From a virus, in the IMG/VR virus record IMGVR_UViG_3300042391_000227, positions 1 to 21,560 of that record: DNA of 21,560 nucleotides; one strand, written 5' to 3'. The notes below the pieces were generated by a model. That model was not told where the DNA came from. It saw nothing but the letters and a program-made list of their open reading frames with translations, and searched no databases. Position 1 is the first letter of the stretch, and each line of letters begins with the position of its first letter. This document shows, piece by piece, positions 1,981 to 19,451 of this stretch. Position numbers and translations under genes: made by a program.

Positions 1981-2993
1981 GAATATTAGTATTAATGGAT
2001 AGTGCAAGTGGGGTGAGCTTTCATCGACTATTCACCCCATACGCTCGTATGCAACAAGACTACGATATACAAGTAGACGTATCACAAAAACCCCCTGAGT
2101 GGATTAACATTGATTTTAGCGTTTACGATGTCGTTATATTCAATAGATGGATTTCGGTTGCACAATATAACATATTTGAGAAGTTAAGCGAATTAAACAT
2201 ACCTACTATTTGCGACGTCGATGATTATTGGGTAGTGCCTAAATCAAACCCAGCATATCGAGTGTACAAAAAAATGATTAAGAATGCAACTAAGGACGCT
2301 ATTTTAAACGCTACACACATTACATCGTCAACAACCCTACTTGCTGAGAAGATAAAAGATATAAATACCAACATAACTATTTTACCGAACGCTTTGGACT
2401 TAACCCAAAACCAATGGACTTTTGAAAAGGCAAAGAATGAGAAGTTGACAATTGGATGGGTGGGTGGTATAACGCACCTTGAAGATTTAAAACGAGTAGG
2501 TAATAGCGTAAAGAGATTCTGTGAAGAAAACGACGCTATCTTTTATATGGCTGGGTATCACACAGAAAGCCACGAATGGCAAATGTGCGAGAAAACCATT
2601 ACGGGCGAATCAATAGAAAACCGTCCTAACTGGTTTAAAACTATACGAGGTACAACGCCTACAGATTATGGGACTTCATATTCATTATTTGACTTTTGTA
2701 TTGCACCACTTCAAGATACTAATTTTAACCAATATAAAAGTGAATTAAAGATAGTAGAGGCTGCAGCATATAATTTACCTATAATTGTATCAAATGTCAA
2801 ACCATATACGCTACACGAGGGGAATAAAGGAGTTATTTTTACTGAGAATAACGAGCAATCGTGGTATGATTGTATTTGCCGTATGGCTAAACTAAACATT
2901 GGTGATTTGAACACAGAATATTGCAACCAATATCACAACCTTAAATCTATAAATCAAACACGCTACGAATTACTCAAGTCACTATGCAAATAA
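1977..2993 (+). CDS. GT-B fold glycosyltransferase (GT4-like)
   Basis: The 338-residue protein has the two-lobed layout of GT-B enzymes. The N-terminal lobe starts MRILVLMDSASGVSFHRL and contains DVDDYW at residues 80-85, seen in several sugar transferases. The C-terminal lobe opens with IGWVGG at about 159-164 followed by H.EDL. It carries the nucleotide-sugar binding segment KSELKIVEAAAYNLP from residue 254, equivalent to the EX7E-containing motif of family GT4. Donor and acceptor cannot be deduced. It could modify virion proteins, host surface sugars or a modified base. Its placement directly before the large terminase (10-nt overlap) is unusual for a modification enzyme and suggests late expression. 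No signal peptide or membrane segment is visible, so it should act in the cytoplasm. Confidence 0.75.
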   Translation: MRILVLMDSASGVSFHRLFTPYARMQQDYDIQVDVSQKPPEWINIDFSVYDVVIFNRWISVAQYNIFEKLSELNIPTICDVDDYWVVPKSNPAYRVYKKMIKNATKDAILNATHITSSTTLLAEKIKDINTNITILPNALDLTQNQWTFEKAKNEKLTIGWVGGITHLEDLKRVGNSVKRFCEENDAIFYMAGYHTESHEWQMCEKTITGESIENRPNWFKTIRGTTPTDYGTSYSLFDFCIAPLQDTNFNQYKSELKIVEAAAYNLPIIVSNVKPYTLHEGNKGVIFTENNEQSWYDCICRMAKLNIGDLNTEYCNQYHNLKSINQTRYELLKSLCK

Positions 2994-4171
2994 CCTACAA
3001 TCGTCCATTCGTTACGACTTACCAAGAAGCCATACTTGATGCACCTGAACGTTACACGGTAACGGCAGCAGCAACAAAGTGCGGTAAAACGGCAAGTCAT
3101 ATCATTTGGATGTTTGAACAAGCGTTAAAACTAAAAGAGAATCAAGCGGTGTGGTGGGTTGCACCGGTCTATCAACAAGCTGAGATAGCATTTCGTAGAA
3201 TGAAAACCCAAATTAATGTGAAGGACTTTTTTATTAGCAACGAAAGTAAGTTAACATTGATTTTGCCAAATGGTGCAAGAATAGAATTTAAGTCCGCAGA
3301 AAAACCCGACAATCTTTATGGTGACGATGTCTATTCAGCAGTAGTTGACGAGGCGTCAAGAATGCGTGAAGAAAGTTGGTTTGCTTTGCGTACTACATTG
3401 ACGGCTACAAAAGGCAAGTGCAAATTAATTGGTAACGTCAAAGGCAAAAAGAATTGGTTTTATAAATTGGGTGAACGTGCAAGACTTGGTGAACCTGACT
3501 ACAAGTTTTTTAAGATTACGGCATACGATGCTGCAAAAGAGGGCATACTTGACTTAGAAGAAATTGAACAAGCAAAGAGAGATTTGCCTGAGTTTGTTTT
3601 TAAAGAGTTATATCTTGCAGAACCTGGTGACGATAAGAGCAATCCTTTTGGAATAGACAATATTCGACGATGTTATGCACCAATAAGCAATAGCACACCC
3701 GTAGCGTTTGGCATTGACCTTGCAAAATATACGGACTGGACTGTGATAACGGGGTTGGATAAAGATAATAGGGTGTGTTATCTCGACAGATTTCAATCTG
3801 ACTGGGAGCAAACGCAAAGAAAAATAGTAAATGTGGTTGGCAGAATACCAGCGTTCGTGGATAGTACTGGTGTCGGTGACCCAATAGTTGAGAATTTACA
3901 ACGTTTATTGCCTAACATTAAAGGTTTTAGATTCACATCACAAAGCAAACAACAAATAATTGAAGGGTTAGTGATGGAAATACAACAAAATTCTATTGCA
4001 TTCCCTGAATCCCCTATCGGGTACGAATTGGAAAACATCGAGTACGAATACACCCGTACGGGCGTAAAGTATGCTGCACCATCAGGACTGCACGACGATT
4101 GTGTGATGTCCTTAGCGTTGGCAGTAGATTGTAAAAAACATAATAAAAAAGGTATATTTGCATTTGCATAA
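2984..4171 (+). CDS. terL: terminase large subunit
   Basis: The 395-residue protein carries both motor and nuclease signatures. The Walker A variant ATKCGKT is at residues 30-36, the Walker B VVDEA at 120-124, and a coupling-type segment (LIGNVKGKKNWFY) follows. The RNase H-like nuclease domain shows FGIDLAKYTDWT with D245, FVDSTGVGDPI with D293, and HDDCVMSLALA with D371-D372, which fits a three-acidic metal site. The protein would hydrolyse ATP to push DNA into the prohead through the portal encoded at 17712 and cut the concatemer. The large terminase is usually close to the portal gene, but here more than 13 kb separate them. The start ATG lies 10 nt inside the glycosyltransferase gene; the stop overlaps the next start by one base. 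Confidence 0.92.
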   Translation: MQITYNRPFVTTYQEAILDAPERYTVTAAATKCGKTASHIIWMFEQALKLKENQAVWWVAPVYQQAEIAFRRMKTQINVKDFFISNESKLTLILPNGARIEFKSAEKPDNLYGDDVYSAVVDEASRMREESWFALRTTLTATKGKCKLIGNVKGKKNWFYKLGERARLGEPDYKFFKITAYDAAKEGILDLEEIEQAKRDLPEFVFKELYLAEPGDDKSNPFGIDNIRRCYAPISNSTPVAFGIDLAKYTDWTVITGLDKDNRVCYLDRFQSDWEQTQRKIVNVVGRIPAFVDSTGVGDPIVENLQRLLPNIKGFRFTSQSKQQIIEGLVMEIQQNSIAFPESPIGYELENIEYEYTRTGVKYAAPSGLHDDCVMSLALAVDCKKHNKKGIFAFA

Positions 4172-4731
4172 TGATAACAATTAAACATATTCAAGAATTA
4201 AAGGAGATAGATCACTATTCACCTTTAGAAAAAGCCATACACACTATTTGCATAGTAGATGGTAGAGATATTGACGAGGTCGAAGAAATGAAAGTTTACG
4301 ACTTATTCAATCGGTTCAATACAATAATGGACAATTTAAAGTTTGAAGATACTATTCAGCTTAGATTTAAAATAAAAGGTCGACGCTTTAGAATGATTCC
4401 TAATGCAATGGAAATGCAAGGTCAACACTTCATATCGCTTCAACAATTTAATAGCGAAGATACGCTTCCAAACTTGCACAGAATTATGGCAATGCTATCT
4501 GAGGAAGTCAATATATTTGGTCGACCTAAAAAAATCAAAAACTTAGGTGTGCAATTTGAAGAAGTCAGTAACTTATTTTTACATTTGCCGTATCAAATAG
4601 CATATGGCTACACGCTTTTTTTTTCTCGTCTTTATCCGAAATTGTTGGACGCTACCCAAACTTATTTGAGTCAGATGGTGGAGAGTCTGAAGGCAAAAGC
4701 AATGGAATACAAGGATGGTTTGAACTCGTAA
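4171..4731 (+). CDS. tail assembly chaperone, short form (G-like)
   Basis: The 186-residue protein is acidic and helical, with an N-terminal IQELKEIDHYSPLEKAIHT region and a central strand-rich part (IQLRFKIKGRRFRMIP). I recognise no catalytic motif. The assignment as the short tail assembly chaperone is inferred from the overlapping -1 frame: a run of nine T inside the gene would let ribosomes slip and make the 245-residue long form ending at 4907. In lambda and many other long-tailed phages such a G/GT pair assists tube assembly around the tape measure. Unlike in lambda, two tail-tip type genes lie between this pair and the tape-measure gene. After the T run the unshifted frame adds 35 residues ending DGLNS. 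Confidence 0.6.
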   Translation: MITIKHIQELKEIDHYSPLEKAIHTICIVDGRDIDEVEEMKVYDLFNRFNTIMDNLKFEDTIQLRFKIKGRRFRMIPNAMEMQGQHFISLQQFNSEDTLPNLHRIMAMLSEEVNIFGRPKKIKNLGVQFEEVSNLFLHLPYQIAYGYTLFFSRLYPKLLDATQTYLSQMVESLKAKAMEYKDGLNS

Positions 4732-4907
4732 ATCAAATCTGTAAAGGTGAACGTGATAAATGGGATTATATTTTGGAAATGCCTATTGTGGAGTTTTTAA
4801 ACACGGTTGCATTTTACGTTGGTAAGCAAAAAGAGTTTAACAAAGATTTGCAAAAATGTACTACGTTTGAAAGTATGGTACTTGCATATTTAAGAAATTT
4901 AGTTTAG
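4171..4907 (+). CDS. tail assembly chaperone, long form made by -1 frameshift (GT-like)
   Basis: The frame at -1 to the short form is open from 4572 to a TAG at 4905-4907. It has no in-frame ATG or GTG before the ATG at 4779, so most of it cannot be started independently. Slippage on the T run (heptamer T TTT TTT at 4617-4623, zero-frame codons TTT TTT) would join residues 1-151 of the short form to 94 further residues, 245 in all. The added part reads as an ordinary protein: an acidic linker (FESDGGESEG), then a helical domain with GWFELVNQICKGERDKWDY, ILEMPIVEFLNTV and KEFNKDLQK. That resembles the T domain of tail chaperones. It is followed by the terminator at 4937. The main alternative is a homopolymer length error that splits one gene. 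Confidence 0.65.
4616..4624 (+). other. slippery T9 run, programmed -1 frameshift site
   Basis: Nine consecutive T residues are read in the zero frame as CTT TTT TTT TCT and in the -1 frame as GCT TTT TTT TTC. The heptamer T TTT TTT fits the X XXY YYZ rule, with full re-pairing of both tRNAs after a one-base slip. Only a weak hairpin (TTGG/CCAA, 4645-4659) can be seen just downstream, so a strong stimulatory structure is not evident. Confidence 0.65.
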
Positions 4908-5012: not shown

Positions 5013-6152
5013 GTGAGTATTACTGTAAATCAAAAACCCGACGATAACGCACCAGCATATAATGATTTAAATTTTGTCATTACTGAGAGTGATAGTGCTA
5101 TTTACACTAAGCCAAACTTTAAATTTATTGCCGATGTATTTGAAAATACAACACGAATTGCACGTTTAAAAGCACCTATCTATCCAAATAGCACCAACAA
5201 AAGTGTTTTTAACATTGGTAGGTTAATTGAAAACTTTGTAACTTTTGATTGGGACATTGACGATACGTCTGTGAGTGGATGTCCAAATAGTAATGTTTAC
5301 TACAAGGTAAACTTTGGTTACGAGTATTCAACTGGCACTACTTCACCAATTATTGAAGTAAGTGGTGCAACTAACGTGACGGGATTAACTGCGTACAATA
5401 TGGCTTTAAACCCTATTGACTTTGTTACGTTTGACGAGGATGACTACAAAATAAACACCACAAAGAATGCCGAGTTTTTAACAACAATGCGAAGTAAAAC
5501 CATTTATCAAAATCAAAAAGACTGGCTTTACTTTTGGCGTGGGAATGCTGTGAGTGTACAAATTAAAACTTTTCCAGCAGCCACAACACAAATAATTTTA
5601 CTAAGTGGAATAACAGATTCGGTTATACGGATTCCAATTATACCAGCAAGTGGTGCAACTTATTTAGAAGTCAAAGCAGTTGGTTCTGGCTCAACAAGTG
5701 AAACATATAGAATAGACATAGAAGATGAATGCACAAAGTACGCAAATAATGACGTTTACTTCCTCAACAGATACGGGGCTATCGAGTCATTTCGGTTTAA
5801 TCGGGTGCGAAAAGATAACTTTACTATACAAAGAAAAACTTATAAGCAAACACAATACAGTTTATCAGGTTCAAGTTATTCCTACGAGACCAGTGCAAGA
5901 AGTACAAGTAACTACAACACCGAAATAATGCAAAAAATTACACTCAATTCTAACTGGATCACAGAAGAAGAAAGTGTATGGCTCAAAGAGTTGGTAGCTT
6001 CACCCTCTATATGGTTGTTAGACGATGGAGTTTTGAAAGCAATTAACATCACTAACACCGACTATTCGGTAAAAACATTGCTAAACGACAAAGTTTTTAA
6101 TTTGACAATCGAATGCGATTTGTCATTTGTCGATAAAGTTCAACGCTTATGA
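5013..6152 (+). CDS. probable tail-tip/baseplate protein (Bacteroidota phage type)
   Basis: The 379-residue protein is rich in strands and aromatic residues, with no signal peptide or enzyme motif. The segment FLNRYGAIESFRF at residues 250-262, followed by RKTYKQTQ, and the C-terminal part with EEESVWLKELVASP and WLLDDG are features I associate with structural tail proteins of Bacteroidota phages, possibly the distal tail protein. The GTG start is supported by the upstream motif, which puts this codon at the same distance (13 nt) as the ATG starts of the other three copies (14-15 nt). It overlaps the 906-residue tail gene by four bases and is first in the tail operon. The two middle segments with SGAT look like Ig-like strands, but this is not certain. 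Confidence 0.6.
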   Translation: MSITVNQKPDDNAPAYNDLNFVITESDSAIYTKPNFKFIADVFENTTRIARLKAPIYPNSTNKSVFNIGRLIENFVTFDWDIDDTSVSGCPNSNVYYKVNFGYEYSTGTTSPIIEVSGATNVTGLTAYNMALNPIDFVTFDEDDYKINTTKNAEFLTTMRSKTIYQNQKDWLYFWRGNAVSVQIKTFPAATTQIILLSGITDSVIRIPIIPASGATYLEVKAVGSGSTSETYRIDIEDECTKYANNDVYFLNRYGAIESFRFNRVRKDNFTIQRKTYKQTQYSLSGSSYSYETSARSTSNYNTEIMQKITLNSNWITEEESVWLKELVASPSIWLLDDGVLKAINITNTDYSVKTLLNDKVFNLTIECDLSFVDKVQRL

Positions 6153-8869
6153 TAAATTTATTCGTAAATAATACGCTGGTCGATTTAAGCGAAGATTTTG
6201 ACTTGCTTATTACTCGTTCAATTGCTGATATTAAAAACCCTGAGCAAAGGTCAAGTGACTGGTCAAAGACTGCAAAGATACCTGGAACAAAAACAAACAA
6301 CATTTTATTCGGTGGTATATTTGAAGTTGAACATACGGTCTTAGGGAGTGGGCAATTTGCACCAAACTTTAACCCAAACAAAAAAGCTGATGTCGTTGTA
6401 TTGGTCGACGGCTTTGAGCAGTTAAGAGGATTTATTAGATTGATTCAAATAAACGTTCTTGACCACGATTTTATTGAATATGAATGTTCACTACACGGAC
6501 AAACTGCTGACTTGTTTACAACGCTTGGCAATGCTAAATTAAGCGAATTAAACTTTGACGAATACAACCACGTTTTAACTTCAACAAACGTTACCAATTC
6601 TTGGGACACGTCAATTGTAAAAAACGGAGGTTCACAAGCCTTTGCCTATGGTGAAGGTTATGTTTACGCACAAATGCTAAATAAGTTCGGAAGCAAAAAC
6701 ACTAAAACAAATCAATGGCGAGTAGATGACCATATACCTTGTTTATATGCAAAGACAATAGTCGACAAAATAATGTCAACTACTGGCTACCAATACACGT
6801 CTGATTCATTTTTTACAACTGATAGGTTTAAACGTTTAATTATTCCATTTACAAATTTTGGATTAAATACTGATGAAACATCGGCAAATAATCGTTTATT
6901 TCAATCAGCAAACACAACAACAATTACGTTTACTACATTCAATCAATTAGTGCCATTTAACAACGACTCAACTGGTGGCAACTTTGACAATGGGGGAAAT
7001 TATAATACGTCAACTTATAAGTTTATTTCACCAATTACTGCAACCTATGATTTTTATTTATCAATTAAAGGTAGTGCAAGTATTCCAAGTGGTTTGATTT
7101 CTGCGGAAACATCAAGACTGGGTTTTGGTGTATATAGGAATGGTGTTTTAAGTAGAACTATTTACATACCGTCGACAAATAGTGTAGTAAATAATTGGTC
7201 TTTTGATTCAACATCTTTTGAATCATTACAATGTTTTCAAGGTGATGAAATACAAATTAAATTTATTGAATTTTCAGGTAGAAATTTTTATAATTTATTA
7301 TCTTCATTATCACTTGATGCAAATGATAACTATTTTTTTAATCGTATTTCAGCATTTAATTACGGATATTTAAACACATTAGATTTTTCGCAGTTTTTTA
7401 GTGGCGACTTTACACAAAAAGAATTACTATTTAACTTTGTTAAAATGTTTAACTTGTATATTGAACAAGATAGCGATAACCCTAAGAAACTGCGATTTAT
7501 ACCACGTGACGAATTTTACAATGGCACTACTCAAGATTGGACTCATTTACTTGACTATTCGCAGAACGTACAAATAGTTCCAATGGGTGACTTAGAAGCA
7601 AACCCCTATGTATTTACTTACAAAGAAGGTCAAGACAATAGAAATACTGAATACAAACAAAGTACAACACGTATATATGGTGATAGAATAATCCGTTTAG
7701 ACAATGATTTTGTAAAACAAGAAAAGAAAATAGAAGTTACATTTGCGCCTACAATGATTTTTCAAGACAATAGTAGATATTATTCGTATATATTAAACGC
7801 AAATAATGACAAAGGACAGCTTAGATGTCTATATTTTGGGGGAGTTAAGACTACATCTTTATATGAAGTGTACAATACCACGCCAACAAACACACCTAAT
7901 TTTACTAAATATCCGTTAACGCTGCACATTGACGATACTGATAATATGCAATTTGACCTAAATTTTGGAATGCCAAACTATGTCATTACAAGTATGGGGT
8001 TAAATTACTCAAACCAAAACCTTGTTAATGTATATTGGTATAAAACAATTCGAGAAATTACCGATAAGAATAGCAAAGTTTTCAAAGGATATTTCCGTAT
8101 CAATCCGTATCAATGGGCAAACATTAAATTTAAAGACCTATATTTCTTTGAGGGTCAATATTGGAGACTTAACAAAATAACAGATTACAACCCTTTGCAA
8201 GAAGGCGTGTATCTATGTGAATTTCTTTTAGTGACTTATTATGAACCAACAACTTCAAACAAAAAGAATGTAGGATTAGGAGTTACTGATATTTTTGGTG
8301 ATAGATACCCATTCGGCAAACCAGTTGGGTTCACGGGCGTAACTACTGGGGGCGTAAACATTGGAGACAGTGGTTTAGATTCTAAAGACAATATCACAGT
8401 AGGCAATGACCACGTTTCGCAAGGTAAATTCGCAAACACTATTTTAGGTGGTACACAAGTAAACATCCCAATTAATTTTGAAAGTGTAACGGCTATAAAC
8501 TGCGATACTTATTCTATCACAGAATCAAATCGTTTCTATGTAGAAAATTTCCCACAGATGGGTGCTTATAGTTGTGGTGGTAATGTAATTGAAATTGACA
8601 ACACCGATAGCCCTTATACGTGTTTATACGATGACTATTTAATTGTATGCGATATGACGGGCAACATATCAATAGTTTTACCTAACCCATCAGCAAACAA
8701 AGGCAAAATATTTGTCGTTAAAAAATTAGGTAGTCCACATACAATAACTGTAACTGCTGGTGATGGTTCTATTTTAATAGATACGTCAACAAGTCACACA
8801 ATTACCAATAATAAAGAAGCACATCAATTTATTTCAACAGGAACACAATATTACGTTATAGTACCTTAA
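6149..8869 (+). CDS. large tail-tip/receptor-binding type protein
   Basis: This 906-residue protein has a mosaic layout. The N-terminal 250 residues (SSDWSKTAKIPGTKTNN, then FNPNKKADVVVLVDGFEQL and RGFIRL) look like the conserved baseplate or tip core seen in Bacteroidota phages. Residues about 250-407 form a strand-rich jelly-roll-like insert (YDFYLSIKG, LGFGVYRNGVLSR, GDEIQIKF) encoded by markedly AT-richer DNA than its surroundings. The core then resumes (FRINPYQWANIKFKDLYFF, YWRLNKITDYNP). The last 85 residues (YLIVCDMTGNISIVLPNP, VVKKLGSPHTITV) match the small C-terminal domain repeated in many tail fibres, where a predicted trimeric sandwich reads T-G-N-I-x-I-x-L-P. The protein probably joins the tail tip to host-recognition domains. 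Confidence 0.65.
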   Translation: MINLFVNNTLVDLSEDFDLLITRSIADIKNPEQRSSDWSKTAKIPGTKTNNILFGGIFEVEHTVLGSGQFAPNFNPNKKADVVVLVDGFEQLRGFIRLIQINVLDHDFIEYECSLHGQTADLFTTLGNAKLSELNFDEYNHVLTSTNVTNSWDTSIVKNGGSQAFAYGEGYVYAQMLNKFGSKNTKTNQWRVDDHIPCLYAKTIVDKIMSTTGYQYTSDSFFTTDRFKRLIIPFTNFGLNTDETSANNRLFQSANTTTITFTTFNQLVPFNNDSTGGNFDNGGNYNTSTYKFISPITATYDFYLSIKGSASIPSGLISAETSRLGFGVYRNGVLSRTIYIPSTNSVVNNWSFDSTSFESLQCFQGDEIQIKFIEFSGRNFYNLLSSLSLDANDNYFFNRISAFNYGYLNTLDFSQFFSGDFTQKELLFNFVKMFNLYIEQDSDNPKKLRFIPRDEFYNGTTQDWTHLLDYSQNVQIVPMGDLEANPYVFTYKEGQDNRNTEYKQSTTRIYGDRIIRLDNDFVKQEKKIEVTFAPTMIFQDNSRYYSYILNANNDKGQLRCLYFGGVKTTSLYEVYNTTPTNTPNFTKYPLTLHIDDTDNMQFDLNFGMPNYVITSMGLNYSNQNLVNVYWYKTIREITDKNSKVFKGYFRINPYQWANIKFKDLYFFEGQYWRLNKITDYNPLQEGVYLCEFLLVTYYEPTTSNKKNVGLGVTDIFGDRYPFGKPVGFTGVTTGGVNIGDSGLDSKDNITVGNDHVSQGKFANTILGGTQVNIPINFESVTAINCDTYSITESNRFYVENFPQMGAYSCGGNVIEIDNTDSPYTCLYDDYLIVCDMTGNISIVLPNPSANKGKIFVVKKLGSPHTITVTAGDGSILIDTSTSHTITNNKEAHQFISTGTQYYVIVP

Positions 8870-8878
8870 AACAAAACA

Positions 8879-11116
8879 ATGGCAAAATCAACCGCAGCAA
8901 TAGAAATAGAAGTAACCCCAAAAGGTGGTGCAACAGAAACCGTAAAAACGTTTAAACAACAATTAAAAGAAGCTAAAAACGAGGCTCAACAATTAGTTGC
9001 TACGTTTGGCGAATTTTCTGCTGAAGCGTTAGCTGGTCAACAAAAAGTTGCTGACTTATCAGATAAAATGGAGGATTTTAACGACCGAATAAAAGCGTTA
9101 AATCCTGACAAATTCGCACGTGTACAAACGGTTGTTAATGGGGTTGCAAGTGGTTTTGCAGCAGCACAAGGTGCAATGGCTTTGTTTGGTTCTGAAAGTG
9201 AAGATTTGCAAAAGACACTTGTAAAAGTACAAGGTGCGATGGCATTGGCTCAAGGGCTTGAAGGACTTGGTAAAGTACAACAACAATTTACCACACTTGC
9301 AAAAGATACACTACAAGGAGTTATAAAAGCATTTAGCACTTTAAAAGGGGCTATAATTGCAACCGGTATTGGTGCGTTGGTTGTGGGGTTAGGATTGCTA
9401 ATTACATATTGGGACGATATCAAAGAAGCGTTGGGTGGTGTAAGTGAAGAACAAATCAAAGTCAATGCAGCAACCAGGGATGCAGTTGCAGCACAACAAG
9501 GTAATATTGAAAAATTAAAGTCATATCAAAAACTTGTTGGAGATACTTCTTTATCAGAAAAAGAAAGAAAGGTTGCCTTAAATGAATTAAATAAATTAGG
9601 AATAGAAACAAGAGATATTAATATAAATAGTGCAAATAGTTTATCTCAATTAAATGCTCGTATAACTGATAATATTAATTTAATTAAGCAAAAAGCACAA
9701 GCACAAGCATTAGAAAAAATTATTGCTGAAGAAACTGAAAAAATATACCGTGAACAAAATAAAACTGTTGATGAACAAGTAGGATTTTTAGATAAATTAT
9801 ATGCTATTGATATGGCATTAATGACATCAGATTATGAAGGCGCAAAAGCAAGTAGGGCAAAACAAAAAGCAAATGAAAACATTACTAAATCACAAGGTTT
9901 ATTAAATATTGCGACGGAAGCATATAATAACATTTTAAAAGATTTAACTAAAAGTGAAACAAAAGTTGCTGAAGTTACAACAACAGTAAACGACGCTTAC
10001 GAAAGGCAAAATTCTACACTTCAAAATAAATTAAATCTTCAATTAATTGCACTTGAAAAAGCAAAGGCAAAAGAAGTTTCTAATTTGGTTTTAACAGAAC
10101 GTGAAAAAATTGTAATAGAAAATAAATATGCAGAACTTTCTTTAAGTGCAAAAGAAAATGCAATTAAAAAAGAACAAGGATTAATTGGTGCAATTACTGA
10201 CCCAAAACAAAGACTTTCACAACAAAGAAAACTAAATGAAGATTTAGCAAAATTAGATGTTGATAGAATAACTCAAAAAACTGCTTTTAATGAAAAAATA
10301 AAGGCAGACGATTTGAAAATAAAGGCAGAAGCCGAAAAATTAATTGCTCAACAACAAACAGATACTGATGCAGCAAATCAAATTCTTTTAAAAAGCTACG
10401 ACGAATACTACGCACAACAAATTTTGATTGCAAAAGAAAGTGGTAAAACAAAAGAAGAAATTGAAAAAGAAGTTGCACGTCTTGAAGTTGAAAATCTTGA
10501 GGCAAAATTAGTTTCTGTTCAAGATAGTGGTGATGCAACTATAGAAATTGAAACTCAAATTTTTGAGAAGAGAAAAGCAATAAAAGACAAAGAAGCTGCC
10601 GATGATTTAGAACGTGAAAAGAATAAACAAGAAGGTATTTATAATATAGCAAATAGTTCTTTGAGTGCTTTGTCTTCATTAAATGAAGCCTTTGCCAGTG
10701 ATAGTGAAGAATCGCAAAAACGTGCGTTTGAAATTGACAAGGCGTTAAAATATGCAAGTACAATAATGTCAACAATTGAAGGTACACAAAGTGCATTCAC
10801 AACTGCAAACAAATCACCAATAACTGCAATATTTCCAGCTTACCCGTACGTTCAGGCTGGGGCTGCACTTGCATTTGGTTTAGCTAACTTAAAGAAAATT
10901 AGCGATACTAAATTTCAAAGTAAAACCACACCAAGTGCTGGTGGAAATCGTGCTGCTGGTGGTGGTGAAGTTACACAAATGGCTGCACCAAGAATGTCAA
11001 GTTTAGGCAATGGTAATGAGTTAACACAAGATAGACGAGTGTACGTTACCGAAGGCGATATTTCACGCACACAGAAGCGTGTAAGCAACAATCAAAGTGT
11101 AAGTGTAGTAGAATAA
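8879..11116 (+). CDS. tail tape-measure protein
   Basis: The 745-residue protein has long charged coiled-coil stretches (residues about 20-75 and 380-620, rich in K, E, Q and A). A hydrophobic segment lies at residues 157-178 (GAIIATGIGALVVGLGLLI), and a second hydrophobic region near 646-674 (SPITAIFPAYPYVQAGAALA) is followed by a glycine/serine-rich tail. This combination is typical of tape-measure proteins, which set tail length and take part in DNA delivery. The length is modest and would predict a tail of roughly 110 nm by the usual 0.15 nm per residue rule. DNA from about 9,480 to 10,300 is much AT-richer than the start of the gene (see findings). The start is ATG after an A-rich CAAAACA context. 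Confidence 0.82.
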   Translation: MAKSTAAIEIEVTPKGGATETVKTFKQQLKEAKNEAQQLVATFGEFSAEALAGQQKVADLSDKMEDFNDRIKALNPDKFARVQTVVNGVASGFAAAQGAMALFGSESEDLQKTLVKVQGAMALAQGLEGLGKVQQQFTTLAKDTLQGVIKAFSTLKGAIIATGIGALVVGLGLLITYWDDIKEALGGVSEEQIKVNAATRDAVAAQQGNIEKLKSYQKLVGDTSLSEKERKVALNELNKLGIETRDININSANSLSQLNARITDNINLIKQKAQAQALEKIIAEETEKIYREQNKTVDEQVGFLDKLYAIDMALMTSDYEGAKASRAKQKANENITKSQGLLNIATEAYNNILKDLTKSETKVAEVTTTVNDAYERQNSTLQNKLNLQLIALEKAKAKEVSNLVLTEREKIVIENKYAELSLSAKENAIKKEQGLIGAITDPKQRLSQQRKLNEDLAKLDVDRITQKTAFNEKIKADDLKIKAEAEKLIAQQQTDTDAANQILLKSYDEYYAQQILIAKESGKTKEEIEKEVARLEVENLEAKLVSVQDSGDATIEIETQIFEKRKAIKDKEAADDLEREKNKQEGIYNIANSSLSALSSLNEAFASDSEESQKRAFEIDKALKYASTIMSTIEGTQSAFTTANKSPITAIFPAYPYVQAGAALAFGLANLKKISDTKFQSKTTPSAGGNRAAGGGEVTQMAAPRMSSLGNGNELTQDRRVYVTEGDISRTQKRVSNNQSVSVVE

Positions 11117-14494: not shown

Positions 14495-16075
14495 ATGTTT
14501 GGTGTTAGCTTAGGTATTCGTGTAGGTAATACCAGTATTTTAGGTGGTGGCTTTGACTCAGACGCACAAGCCTATTTTGATAGGGTAACGACTGCGGGTG
14601 GTACGCTTACAACTACAGAAAAAAATGCTGTAAATCAACTTGTTTTAGATTTAAAAGCAAATTCACTTTGGACACCGATGAAAGCCATTTACCCAATGGT
14701 TGGAGCAAGTGCTGCAGCTTGTGCGCAGAATTTAAAGAGCAGTAGTTTTACGGGTACTTTTACAAGTGGTTGGACGTTTGCAAGTACGGGTGCAACACCT
14801 AATGGCACAAGTGCGTATATGAATATAGGTTTAAACCCATCTATGGTATTGACGAACAATAATTATCATTTATCTCATTATTCATTAACTCAAAAAACAA
14901 CAGGTACAGAAGTTGATTTCGCTGCAATTTCCCCTTCTCCGGTAATGATAAGTTTAGCACAATACTATCAAGGTGTGGGTAAAGGTTTTGTAGCTGGTGA
15001 TTATATCGTTTCCGCTATTGCTGTTTTGGGAGCAACCAATACAAGAGGATTTCAAGTAAACACAAGAAGTTCTCAAACATCTGCAAAAATGTTTTTGAAT
15101 AATAGTCAAGTTGGTTCAACTTTAACTTTAAGCAATACTAATCCATTACCAAACGCAAATATGTCACTTGGTTCTAATAACAATGGTGGCTCTTATTATG
15201 AGTATTCATCAAAACAATGTGCCTTTGCATCTATCGGTGACGGCTTAACCGATACCCAAGCATCTAATTTTTACACCGCAGTCCAAGCATTCAACCAAAC
15301 TTTAGACCGTCAAGTAGGTGCACAAATAGTTAGCGACGCAGACGCACAGGCGTATATTAATCGTGTTTACACCGCTGGTGGAACATTGACAAACACAGAA
15401 GCAAATGCAGTCAATCAATTAGTTATTGATTTGAAAGCAAATTCATTGTGGACACCAATGAAAGCCATTTACCCAATGGTAGGAGCGAGTGCAGCGGCGT
15501 GTGCTCAGAACTTAAAAAGTAGTAGTTTTACGGGTACGTTTAGTTCTGGTTGGACTTTTGCAAGTACGGGGGTTACTCCAAACGGAAGTAGTGCGTATAT
15601 GTCAACGGGGTTTAACCCAAGGACATCATTAACAAATAGTAGTGGTCATTTTTCCTATTATAGTAGAACAAATTCGGCTGGTGGTAATAAATATGAAATG
15701 GCTAATTATGATGGTACATTTGGTAACGGGTTAATTATAAGATATTCATCAGATACTTTTTATGCTGTATATGGTCAATACAATGCAAATACTACAAATA
15801 CTGATTCTCGTGGTTTTTTTGTTACAAATAGAAATTCATTGACAAATACTACTGGTTTCAAAAATGGTACTAAATTAATTGATACTATAACTACGGGTAC
15901 AACTGCAAATAAAGATATTATATTGGGTGCTGAAAATTTTAATACTATTTCTGGTTTTACAGATAGACAATGCGCATTCTCCTCAATCGGTGACGGATTA
16001 ACTGACGCCCAAGTATCAGCATTATATACAAATGTTCAAACTTTTCAAACAACCCTCAATCGCCAAGTAGTTTAG
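14495..16075 (+). CDS. surface/fibre protein with two tandem lectin-like modules
   Basis: The 526-residue protein consists of two copies of one module of about 250 residues (roughly 21-273 and 281-526). Each has a short helical start (SDAQAYFDRVTTAGGTLT or DADAQAYINRVYTAGGTLT), a conserved LKANSLWTPMKAIYPMVGAS and an ACAQNLKSSSFTGTF segment. A beta-rich middle follows, and the module closes with QCAFASIGDGLTD or QCAFSSIGDGLTD plus a final helix. The middle looks like a concanavalin/LamG-type sandwich and differs strongly between copies, while the module starts are nearly identical. It is therefore a good candidate for binding sugar on the host surface with two different specificities. A short N-terminal leader (MFGVSLGIRVGNTSILGGG) could attach it to the virion. 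Confidence 0.7.
   Translation: MFGVSLGIRVGNTSILGGGFDSDAQAYFDRVTTAGGTLTTTEKNAVNQLVLDLKANSLWTPMKAIYPMVGASAAACAQNLKSSSFTGTFTSGWTFASTGATPNGTSAYMNIGLNPSMVLTNNNYHLSHYSLTQKTTGTEVDFAAISPSPVMISLAQYYQGVGKGFVAGDYIVSAIAVLGATNTRGFQVNTRSSQTSAKMFLNNSQVGSTLTLSNTNPLPNANMSLGSNNNGGSYYEYSSKQCAFASIGDGLTDTQASNFYTAVQAFNQTLDRQVGAQIVSDADAQAYINRVYTAGGTLTNTEANAVNQLVIDLKANSLWTPMKAIYPMVGASAAACAQNLKSSSFTGTFSSGWTFASTGVTPNGSSAYMSTGFNPRTSLTNSSGHFSYYSRTNSAGGNKYEMANYDGTFGNGLIIRYSSDTFYAVYGQYNANTTNTDSRGFFVTNRNSLTNTTGFKNGTKLIDTITTGTTANKDIILGAENFNTISGFTDRQCAFSSIGDGLTDAQVSALYTNVQTFQTTLNRQVV
14555..14835 (+). repeat. direct repeat, first copy of the lectin-like module start
   Basis: This stretch aligns with 15335-15615 at a constant offset of 780 bases (260 codons). 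Identical runs include ATGAAAGCCATTTACCCAAT. Most mismatches are third-position and synonymous, so the two copies are an older in-frame duplication kept under protein-level selection. Confidence 0.9.
15335..15615 (+). repeat. direct repeat, second copy of the lectin-like module start
   Basis: Second copy of the 14555-14835 segment at a 780-base offset. The protein is identical over a 37-residue stretch, from LKANS to FTGTF, although several codons differ. Downstream of about 15,640 the copies lose similarity until the closing QCAF.SIGDGLTD segment. Confidence 0.9.
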
Positions 16076-17070: not shown

Positions 17071-17355
17071 ATGAGCCTACCAATTTCATTTGAAGAATTT
17101 AAAAAGAACCCCATAGCAGCGGTGGCTTTTTGTATGCTTTTAATTGTAGGCTATTTGTACTATGATTCCGAGAATACAAAGAAAGCCATTATTTCAAAGT
17201 GTGAAAATGAAAATATAAAAATGGGCGATAGGTTGCACAAAATGGAACGTCAACAAAAGCAAAGCGATAGTTTATTGGCAGTATATTCATATGAGATTAA
17301 ATTTTACTTGAATGCTATCGAAGGGTATTCTGAAACAATAGAACAAAAAAAATGA
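17071..17355 (+). CDS. small membrane protein with coiled coil
   Basis: The 94-residue protein has one membrane segment (residues about 16-31, AAVAFCMLLIVGYLYY) after a short N-terminus, and then a charged helix with coiled-coil character (CENENIKMGDRLHKMERQQ, KQSDSLLAVYSYEI). This N-in, helix-outside topology is like that of inner-membrane spanins or holin partners. It is next to two holin-like genes with ATGA overlaps, so a role in lysis is the leading idea. No direct motif proves it. Confidence 0.5.
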   Translation: MSLPISFEEFKKNPIAAVAFCMLLIVGYLYYDSENTKKAIISKCENENIKMGDRLHKMERQQKQSDSLLAVYSYEIKFYLNAIEGYSETIEQKK

Positions 17356-17528
17356 GAAACTTGAACGACACGGCAGCAGATAGTAGCAGCATCATTTCAG
17401 TAGTGAGTGCCTTTGCATCCATTAGCACAACGGCACAACCTATTATCTCGGCATTGGCTGGTTTAGTGGCTATCATTTCGGGGTTATTTGCCATCCGTTA
17501 TTACATAAAAAAAACAAACAATTTATGA
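17352..17528 (+). CDS. holin-like small membrane protein (58 aa)
   Basis: A 58-residue frame with ATG at 17352 and TGA at 17526-17528 fills the space between two other membrane genes. It overlaps both by four bases (ATGA at each end), which makes translation likely. After a polar start (MRNLNDTAADSSS) it carries one long or two short hydrophobic segments (IISVVSAFASIS and ISALAGLVAIISGLFAI) and a basic end (RYYIKKTNN). Size, topology and charged C-terminus suit a holin, although small membrane proteins of other kinds cannot be excluded. Confidence 0.6.
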   Translation: MRNLNDTAADSSSIISVVSAFASISTTAQPIISALAGLVAIISGLFAIRYYIKKTNNL

Positions 17529-17725
17529 AAATATTTGAAATATTCAAAGGTGATAAAGGCGAATTTAGCTCAAAGCGATTAATCGGCATTGTCGGTGGTT
17601 TAGCTTTAATTGGGGCGATGGTTTACCACAACACCGATAAGTTAATTGAAAGCGTTGAATGGGTGGTCATTCTAACATTAGGATTTACATCAGTAGATAA
17701 ATTCGGAAACAATGGAAAACAATAA
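17525..17725 (+). CDS. holin-like protein with two membrane segments
   Basis: The 66-residue protein has a polar N-terminus (FKGDKGEFSSKR), a first membrane segment (LIGIVGGLALIGAMVY), a short loop (HNTDKLIES), a second hydrophobic segment (VEWVVILTLGF) and a polar end. Two-segment proteins with the GEFSSKR start are frequent in Bacteroidota phages and are usually labelled putative holins. The gene overlaps its upstream neighbour by four bases and the portal gene by 14 bases. I see no endolysin in this window that would complete a lysis set. Confidence 0.55.
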   Translation: MKIFEIFKGDKGEFSSKRLIGIVGGLALIGAMVYHNTDKLIESVEWVVILTLGFTSVDKFGNNGKQ

Positions 17726-19451
17726 GTTCGCACTCGATAGACTTTCTTTTGCTGGCATTTCTTTGCCTACATTTAAAGAAAATAAAACAAAAGGGTACAC
17801 AACTTTTGGTGAGGATAACTTATACCCTCAAAAATTGATTGATTTATACAACAAATCACCTAAACATAATGCTATTGTCAACCAAAAATCGTCTTATATT
17901 GCTGGTGAATCATTTGAAATTTATGCAGATGACACGCTAAACAAGGCAAAAGCATTCGACAAGTTAAGAAATATTAATGCATTTGAAGATTATGAGTCGT
18001 TTAATACCAAGATTTCACAAGATTTTGAACTATTTGATGGCTATTATATTGAAGTTATTTGGAATAAAGCCAAAACAGAGATTGCCGAGTTGTATCATTT
18101 ACCCTTTCAGAATGTTAGATTAGGCAAAGATTGTGCCTATTACTCAGAAGATTGGTCAAATAGCCGTGAAGCCGTAATAGAATACCCATTATTTAACCCA
18201 ACAACAAGGGAAAATAAACAAGTATATGCATTTAAAATGTATCGTGCCGGTCAAGGGAAATACCCTTTGCCATCTTATATAGGTGCTTTAAAGTATATAG
18301 AGATTGACGTTGAGATAGGTAACTACTATTTGAGTAATATCAAAAACGGATTTTTTGCACAGACAGTAATTCAAATGTTTAAGGGTCAACCAACGCCTGA
18401 AGAAATGAGAATTGCTAAACGTCGTTTTAAAAAGAACTATCAAGGTGCAGAAGCTGAAGAAAGTGGTGGGTTAATCATTATGTATAATGAGCAGAACGAA
18501 AAACCCGCAGAAATTACCAACTTACAACCGTCTGACTTTGACAAACAATTTCAACAACTAAACGACCAAGTACAAGAAGAAATCTTTGTCGGTCATAGAG
18601 TAAGTACACCCGTTATTTTTGGAATTGCAACGCCCGGTACATTAGGTCAGCGTAATGAAATTATCGAAGGGTACGAGTTATTTCAAACTTCTTATATTGA
18701 ACCACGCCAAAAAATTAAGGATTCGTCTTTTAATGTGGTGTTTCAATATATGGCTGATGCTAAATTGAAAACTACTAACAAGCCACCAATTGGTCAGGAT
18801 TATATTTTACTATTTGAAAAAGGTATTCTTGACAAAAATGAAGTTCGCAAAGAATTAGGTTTTGCCATTGTAGAAGAAGTTGCAATGTCTAAAAAGCAAA
18901 GCAACGACGATGTTTTAAAAATGTTTAGCGAATGTGGTGTATCAAAAAACGATTATGAAGTTTGTAAGTTTGAATTTGCAAGTGCAAGTCAAACTGCTAT
19001 TTTGCAGATATTAAATGCAAACGAAGGCATCACAGTAGGCGAAATCGCAAAGTACGTTAACATCGACGCCCAAAAGGTAATGGATGCAATCACTCAAATG
19101 ATTGACGATGGCTTAATTAATTCAGACAATGGCAAACTTTCAACTTCACAAAAAGGCACACGTGAACTTAGTAAAAGTGTAGACACTCAAATAGAGTTAA
19201 GATATGAGTACGGATTAGATGCTGCCTTTACTGGTGAACCTGAATTGATAGATACAAGCCGTGATTTTTGCCGTCAATTGATAGGGTTAAATAGATACTA
19301 CACACGCACAGAAATTGACACGATTTCAAGCCGTGTTGATAGAGATGTGTGGAAAGAAAGAGGTGGGTGGTACACTATACCTGACACCGACGTACATATT
19401 AACCATTGCCGTCACGCTTGGAATAGTAAATTAGTAAGGAAAAAATTATGA
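17712..19451 (+). CDS. portal protein with winged-helix segment and Mu F-like C-terminus
   Basis: The 579-residue protein has a portal-type body: FGEDNLYPQKLIDLYNKSP near residues 35-53, HNAIVNQKSSYIAGE, a long central part with FELFDGYYIEVIWNK and LPFQNVRLG, and a stem-like region with QEEIFVGHRVSTPVIFGI. After residue 422 comes a winged-helix-like stretch to about 488 (QTAILQILNANEGITVGEI, IDAQKVMDAITQMIDDGLI). The last 80 residues hold DTSRDFCRQL, YYTRTEIDTIS, GGWYT and NHCRHAWN, the conserved C/H pattern of Mu gpF-like minor head proteins. The portal forms the ring through which DNA enters. Fusion with a Mu F-like end is plausible in this phage type; the winged-helix piece is odd. Its start lies inside the holin-like gene. 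Confidence 0.8.
   Translation: MENNKFALDRLSFAGISLPTFKENKTKGYTTFGEDNLYPQKLIDLYNKSPKHNAIVNQKSSYIAGESFEIYADDTLNKAKAFDKLRNINAFEDYESFNTKISQDFELFDGYYIEVIWNKAKTEIAELYHLPFQNVRLGKDCAYYSEDWSNSREAVIEYPLFNPTTRENKQVYAFKMYRAGQGKYPLPSYIGALKYIEIDVEIGNYYLSNIKNGFFAQTVIQMFKGQPTPEEMRIAKRRFKKNYQGAEAEESGGLIIMYNEQNEKPAEITNLQPSDFDKQFQQLNDQVQEEIFVGHRVSTPVIFGIATPGTLGQRNEIIEGYELFQTSYIEPRQKIKDSSFNVVFQYMADAKLKTTNKPPIGQDYILLFEKGILDKNEVRKELGFAIVEEVAMSKKQSNDDVLKMFSECGVSKNDYEVCKFEFASASQTAILQILNANEGITVGEIAKYVNIDAQKVMDAITQMIDDGLINSDNGKLSTSQKGTRELSKSVDTQIELRYEYGLDAAFTGEPELIDTSRDFCRQLIGLNRYYTRTEIDTISSRVDRDVWKERGGWYTIPDTDVHINHCRHAWNSKLVRKKL

Follow-up and report, generated by a model that had tools for sequence, protein, structure and literature searches.

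A probable −1 ribosomal frameshift at an all-T site next to terL in aquatic phages, likely encoding tail assembly chaperones of the G/GT type

The DNA analyzed here, called the window, is the whole 21,560-nucleotide stretch of an IMG/VR virus record (IMGVR_UViG_3300042391_000227) and comes from an uncultivated phage. Directly after the gene for the large subunit of terminase (terL), it carries a gene that is overlapped at its 3' end by a second, hidden reading frame. The features of this region, all on the plus (+) strand, are the following.

2984-4171, +: terL (phrog_2, E 1.9e-35), which immediately precedes the frameshift gene in the examined near relatives as well
4171-4731, +: zero-frame gene, predicted G-like product of 186 aa, stop TAA at 4729-4731; supported by relatives and an AlphaFold2 model
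4616-4624, +: run of nine T (T9)
4617-4623, +: slippery heptamer T_TTT_TTT, with zero-frame codons TTT TTT at 4618-4623
4623-4907, +: predicted T-like domain in the −1 frame, 94 codons plus the stop TAG; supported by dN/dS and by an all-helical structure model of low confidence
4624-4731, +: dual-coding overlap 3' of the slip site
5013-6152, +: conserved gene of the tail region, lying between the frameshift and tape measure genes, from synteny
6149-8869, +: another conserved gene of the tail region, a large one, immediately before that for the tape measure, from synteny
8879-11116, +: gene for the tape measure protein, the proposed client of the chaperone (phrog_3336, E 1.9e-4; synteny)

The start codon of the zero-frame gene overlaps the terL stop (ATG A). 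Across the T9 run the codons read ACG CTT TTT TTT TCT CGT, and the heptamer is phased as tandem −1 slippage requires. An open −1 frame extends from 4572 to 4904 and ends with TAG at 4905-4907, beyond the zero-frame stop at 4731; its earliest ATG is at 4779, with a TTG at 4773. In all of these points (the in-phase run of nine T, the reach of the open frame, and the absence of an ATG before 4779), the initial annotation of the locus was borne out. The G-T fusion predicted from this layout has 245 aa, made of zero-frame residues 1-151 and 94 residues from the −1 frame. AlphaFold2 models the zero-frame product (pLDDT 82) as an alpha/beta core with a helical C-terminus.

A first scan for relatives gave 39 contigs, most of them at either 94-99% or about 43% identity. 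Profile scans then raised the number of confirmed relatives to over 300 for either half of the gene pair, 80 of which were kept per scan. Both halves are present at 202 loci, some of them on contigs that were fetched more than once; deduplication left 89 distinct overlaps, which form 14 clusters at 80% amino-acid identity. The second half is in the −1 frame in 201 of these 202 IMG/VR loci. The apparent exception, L206, was rejected, as it is a 3.8-kb contig cut inside the gene, with the halves at its two ends. Conservation of the −1 frame, on which the initial annotation partly hung, extends to every distinct sequence: it is kept as a protein in 89 of 89, as well as in 43 more from the remote branch described below.

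The length of the T run is just as regular. Exactly nine T (xTT TTT TTT TCx, giving T_TTT_TTT) are found in 71 of the 89 distinct overlaps. A run of six T (T6) is found in the other 18, as TCT TTT TTC (T_TTT_TTC) in 15 sequences of one clade and as GTT TTT TCT (T_TTT_TCT) in three. Wherever the run was scorable in a relative it is thus T9 or T6, and none has a length that would fuse the two frames into one gene, the other point on which the initial annotation could have failed. A heptamer of the form X_XXY_YYZ stands in the zero-frame phase in 86 of the 89 distinct relatives and in all 43 scored sequences of the remote branch. In all 86, the first Phe codon of the slip site is TTT, compared with 53% of the Phe codons upstream in the same genes. 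The three remaining contigs (L082, L083, and L182) read GCA GTT TTT TCT TTG at the site and keep both frames without a canonical heptamer; they offer a natural test of slippage on T_TTT_TCT.

Could such an arrangement arise by chance? The T9 run is the sole plus-strand run of at least eight T in the window, and runs of eight T on both strands are rarer than expected (4 matches compared to a mean of 19.5 in shuffled sequences). The window's genes were also scanned for −1 or +1 open reading frames extending at least 30 codons beyond the gene stop; among the overlapping pairs, the gene at 4171 alone has an all-T heptamer, and its overlap is the longest (53 codons). Given the zero-frame protein and the codon usage of the family, the probability of an open −1 frame across the overlap is 0.06 for the window sequence and about 1e-14 for all 14 clusters if they are taken as independent, which they are not fully. 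The hidden double frame at 4171 is confirmed as real, far beyond chance.

Selection acts on both frames. In close pairs, dN/dS of the stretch read only in the −1 frame is mostly 0.03-0.07, much like that of the stretch read only in the zero frame, and points to strong purifying selection on the −1 domain in the pairs for which it was computed. Pairs involving L052, L053, L060, and L056/L058 were left out of the −1-only estimate because their zero-frame stop is shifted and the sequences are misaligned. Zero-frame synonymous differences per codon are 0.16-0.30 upstream of the site, 0.08 in the first ten codons after it, and about 0.03 beyond. Synonymous variation thus drops about sevenfold (0.22 to 0.03), and the drop begins at the slip site, as it should if this is where −1 translation sets in. 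In 63 of the 89 sequences, no ATG, GTG, or TTG occurs in the −1 frame as far as 20 codons beyond the slip site. The comparison shows two genuine protein-coding frames, joined at the slip site in an ancient arrangement.

A remote branch of the family was entered through a fold search with the zero-frame model. The matches were uncharacterized phage proteins and, among named phages, a protein of Nonlabens phage P12024S. Its gene lies directly after terL with the same ATG A overlap, and its slip site reads ATA CTT TTT TTT TAT. The protein read from the −1 frame of P12024S is LSFRERLRDLYPELY...WSWYHTF, and the annotated gene covers just its final 55 codons. The arrangement in phage P12024L is the same, T9 included, so that the run length seen in the contigs recurs in two cultivated phages. 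In these Nonlabens (Persicivirga) phages, the halves (genes 38/39 and 40/41) are annotated as two unrelated "hypothetical proteins," with no frameshift noted, and the two P12024S pieces sit in separate PHROG families of unknown function (32199 and 38404). A scan from the P12024S gene gave 63 loci, 43 of them distinct where scored, and T_TTT_TTT is present in all 43; the T run is exactly nine in nearly all of the branch. Comparison of the window family with the remote branch by hhalign (one comparison for each half) matched the zero-frame halves at E 1.2e-12 and the −1 halves at E 5e-9, which supports homology of both the G and the T halves. The two cultivated phages resemble the window gene in having homologous G and T domains, a T9 heptamer, and a position after terL, and they differ from it in being remote in sequence and annotated as two unrelated proteins. 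Flavobacterium phage 6H, a weak fold match, carries T_TTT_TTC close to the end of its gene; a stop in the −1 frame follows at once, and for this reason the phage was not counted.

In several members of the remote branch, the zero-frame product continues 55-84 residues beyond the slip site, so the two products there differ in their C-termini and not simply in length. In four of them (L229, L240, L245, and L272), the zero frame runs 79-84 codons beyond the site and overlaps the −1 domain almost fully. Both overlapping frames are similarly conserved in these four, a case of long dual coding with two alternative C-termini.

The reading we consider quite probable is that programmed −1 ribosomal frameshifting makes two proteins, G and G-T, which act like gpG and gpGT of phage lambda. 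Most ribosomes would terminate at 4731 and release the 186-aa G-like protein. A minority would slip back one base on T_TTT_TTT at 4617-4623 and read on to 4907, producing the 245-aa fusion, the last 94 residues of which would form a separate helical T-like domain. That some ribosomes slip in this way at the T9 run and add a second domain is very probably the case.

What the two products do is suggested by their architecture and by the genes around them. In the lambda model, the tail assembly chaperone consists of a short product and a −1 extended product (PMC5009743), and the pair predicted here likewise has a shared N-terminus with a short and an extended form. By analogy with lambda, G would serve to coat the tape measure protein (8879-11116), and T, the rarer part, would bring in tail tube subunits. 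The contigs examined share one gene order over the length that each covers: glycosyltransferase, terL, frameshift gene, two tail-region genes, tape measure, protease, capsid. The glycosyltransferase-like gene of the window, at 1977-2993 before terL, is also conserved in the near relatives examined. On architecture and synteny, the frameshift-gene pair is likely a tail assembly chaperone. Of the claim in the initial annotation that this is a G/GT-type tail chaperone, the G/GT-like shift is strongly supported, and the chaperone part stands as likely, neither sequence nor fold having matched a chaperone already known.

Of course, the frameshift could be real and the products something other than tail chaperones, such as a packaging or head-tail factor linked to terL. 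The frameshift gene adjoins terL, and in the contigs examined at least two genes lie between it and that for the tape measure, while genes for tail assembly chaperones like lambda gpG/gpGT usually lie just before theirs. Nor do the products match known tail assembly chaperone families in Pfam, NCBIfam, or PHROG; the hits of five of 15 remote members to phrog_166 ("tail protein"), none with E better than 0.005, are too weak to build on, and the fold search reached annotated chaperones only at E ~0.5, which is not significant. Against a non-chaperone role stand the combination of a short G and a −1 extended G-T, which is the architecture of tail assembly chaperones, and the fact that the window has no other candidate with a T-rich slip site. 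On balance, such a role is unlikely, though it deserves some weight. Other searches gave no match either (PDB by sequence and by fold, and tblastn of the window gene against a phage collection). Two scans of genome contigs (genome_contigs) were likewise without a match, and so gave no prophage or host link.

Lambda differs from the window gene in its slip site as well, which is a G/A heptamer in lambda and all T here. Another parallel is phage P2, a contractile-tailed phage, whose E/E+E' frameshift uses T_TTT_TTG. Both have a T-rich slippery heptamer in a tail chaperone gene, or in what is likely one, with T_TTT_TTT or T_TTT_TTC in the present family. In our reading, the pair described here would work like G/GT, which is a statement about function and not about descent from lambda-type chaperones.

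How the shift occurs is the next question. On the preferred reading, the slip would take place on the ribosome, with two Phe-tRNAs re-pairing from UUU to UUU without a strong RNA stimulator. The initial annotation had seen no strong downstream hairpin, in agreement with single-sequence folding, sliding windows, and consensus folding, none of which gave a structure; z-scores were near zero, and Rfam and tRNA scans of the window also gave nothing. It had further described the shift as entirely homopolymeric, which holds for the window and not for the family, since one clade uses T_TTT_TTC.

The same fusion could be made if RNA polymerase slipped on the T9 run, giving some mRNAs an extra U, so that ordinary translation enters the −1 frame. 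Nine is a run length with documented bacterial cases, namely, transcriptional slippage at T9/A9 in Thermus dnaX and Shigella spa13 (PMC5009743), which are like the window gene in having a nine-base homopolymer in a gene with an alternative frame. In addition, 71 distinct relatives and almost the whole remote branch have a run of exactly nine, and no RNA stimulator of ribosomal slippage was found. However, a homopolymer of about nine or more is not universal in the family. In the 15-sequence clade that has only T6, the −1 domain is under selection, and the six T are held in the sole phase that gives T_TTT_TTC, which is why ribosomal −1 slippage fits best. Unlike dnaX and spa13, this family keeps the ribosomal heptamer where the run has only six T. 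The T9 run itself can be explained as the heptamer plus its flanking codons (Leu/Val xTT before, Ser/Tyr T.. after). Polymerase slippage could occur in the T9 members, alone or in addition, but it does not readily explain the T6 members, and as the source of the fusion it is improbable.

The three T_TTT_TCT contigs may slip through a single tRNA or through imperfect re-pairing; in the fungus Podospora, a −1 shift is reported at U_UUU_UCC (PMC5009743). A more speculative idea, to which we would give little credence, joins both mechanisms: T9 would be a double slippage device, for RNA polymerase and ribosome, that sets the ratio of G to G-T without RNA structure in a terL-linked tail chaperone lineage unrelated in sequence to lambda G/GT, with the T6 and U_UUU_UCU clades having kept only the ribosomal (or single-tRNA) route.

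It is very improbable that the −1 region is a separate downstream gene with its own start, through internal or coupled initiation, and that no fusion is made. P12024S does have a −1-frame ATG at the zero-frame stop, where its 55-aa gene is annotated, but 63 of the 89 sequences lack any such start near the site, and the slip site, where both the synonymous constraint and the conservation of the −1 frame set in, lies before every start of this kind. Although homopolymers are error-prone, an error of sequencing or assembly, or the decay of what was once a single gene, deserves practically no credence, given the recurrence of one run length across many independent contigs and in both cultivated phages, the T6 clade, the conserved zero-frame C-terminus and stop, and the purifying selection in both frames. 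The relatives and the selection tests thus rule out error, pseudogene, and separate gene.

Searches of the open-access literature turned up no account of this frameshift in these phages. The principle is already known, and as far as could be seen, the lineage, the location after terL, and the all-T site are new. The result offers a functional reading for hundreds of "hypothetical" genes adjoining terL in aquatic phages, and it adds one more lineage to the tail genes that depend on −1 slippage. The group has cultivated members (P12024S and P12024L, isolated on a marine Persicivirga). The natural series of T9, T6 with C, and shifted T6 would allow slippage without an RNA stimulator to be measured and ribosomal slippage to be separated from that of the polymerase.

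The window holds a few other features of note. A_AAA_AAA occurs in phase at 17346-17352 and 17507-17513, at the ends of two successive small genes and just before ATG A overlaps with the gene that follows; these heptamers are probably due to chance in an A-rich region. In the portal protein (17712-19451), a winged-helix (HTH_24/MarR-like) domain scores above the Pfam cut-off at about residues 422-475, and an extension at the C-terminus comes after it; a fusion of winged helix and portal is unusual. A 526-aa protein (14495-16075) is an internal duplication, with residues 20-264 matching residues 280-515 (133 identities in 251 columns), and its position suggests a virion surface or tail fiber protein.
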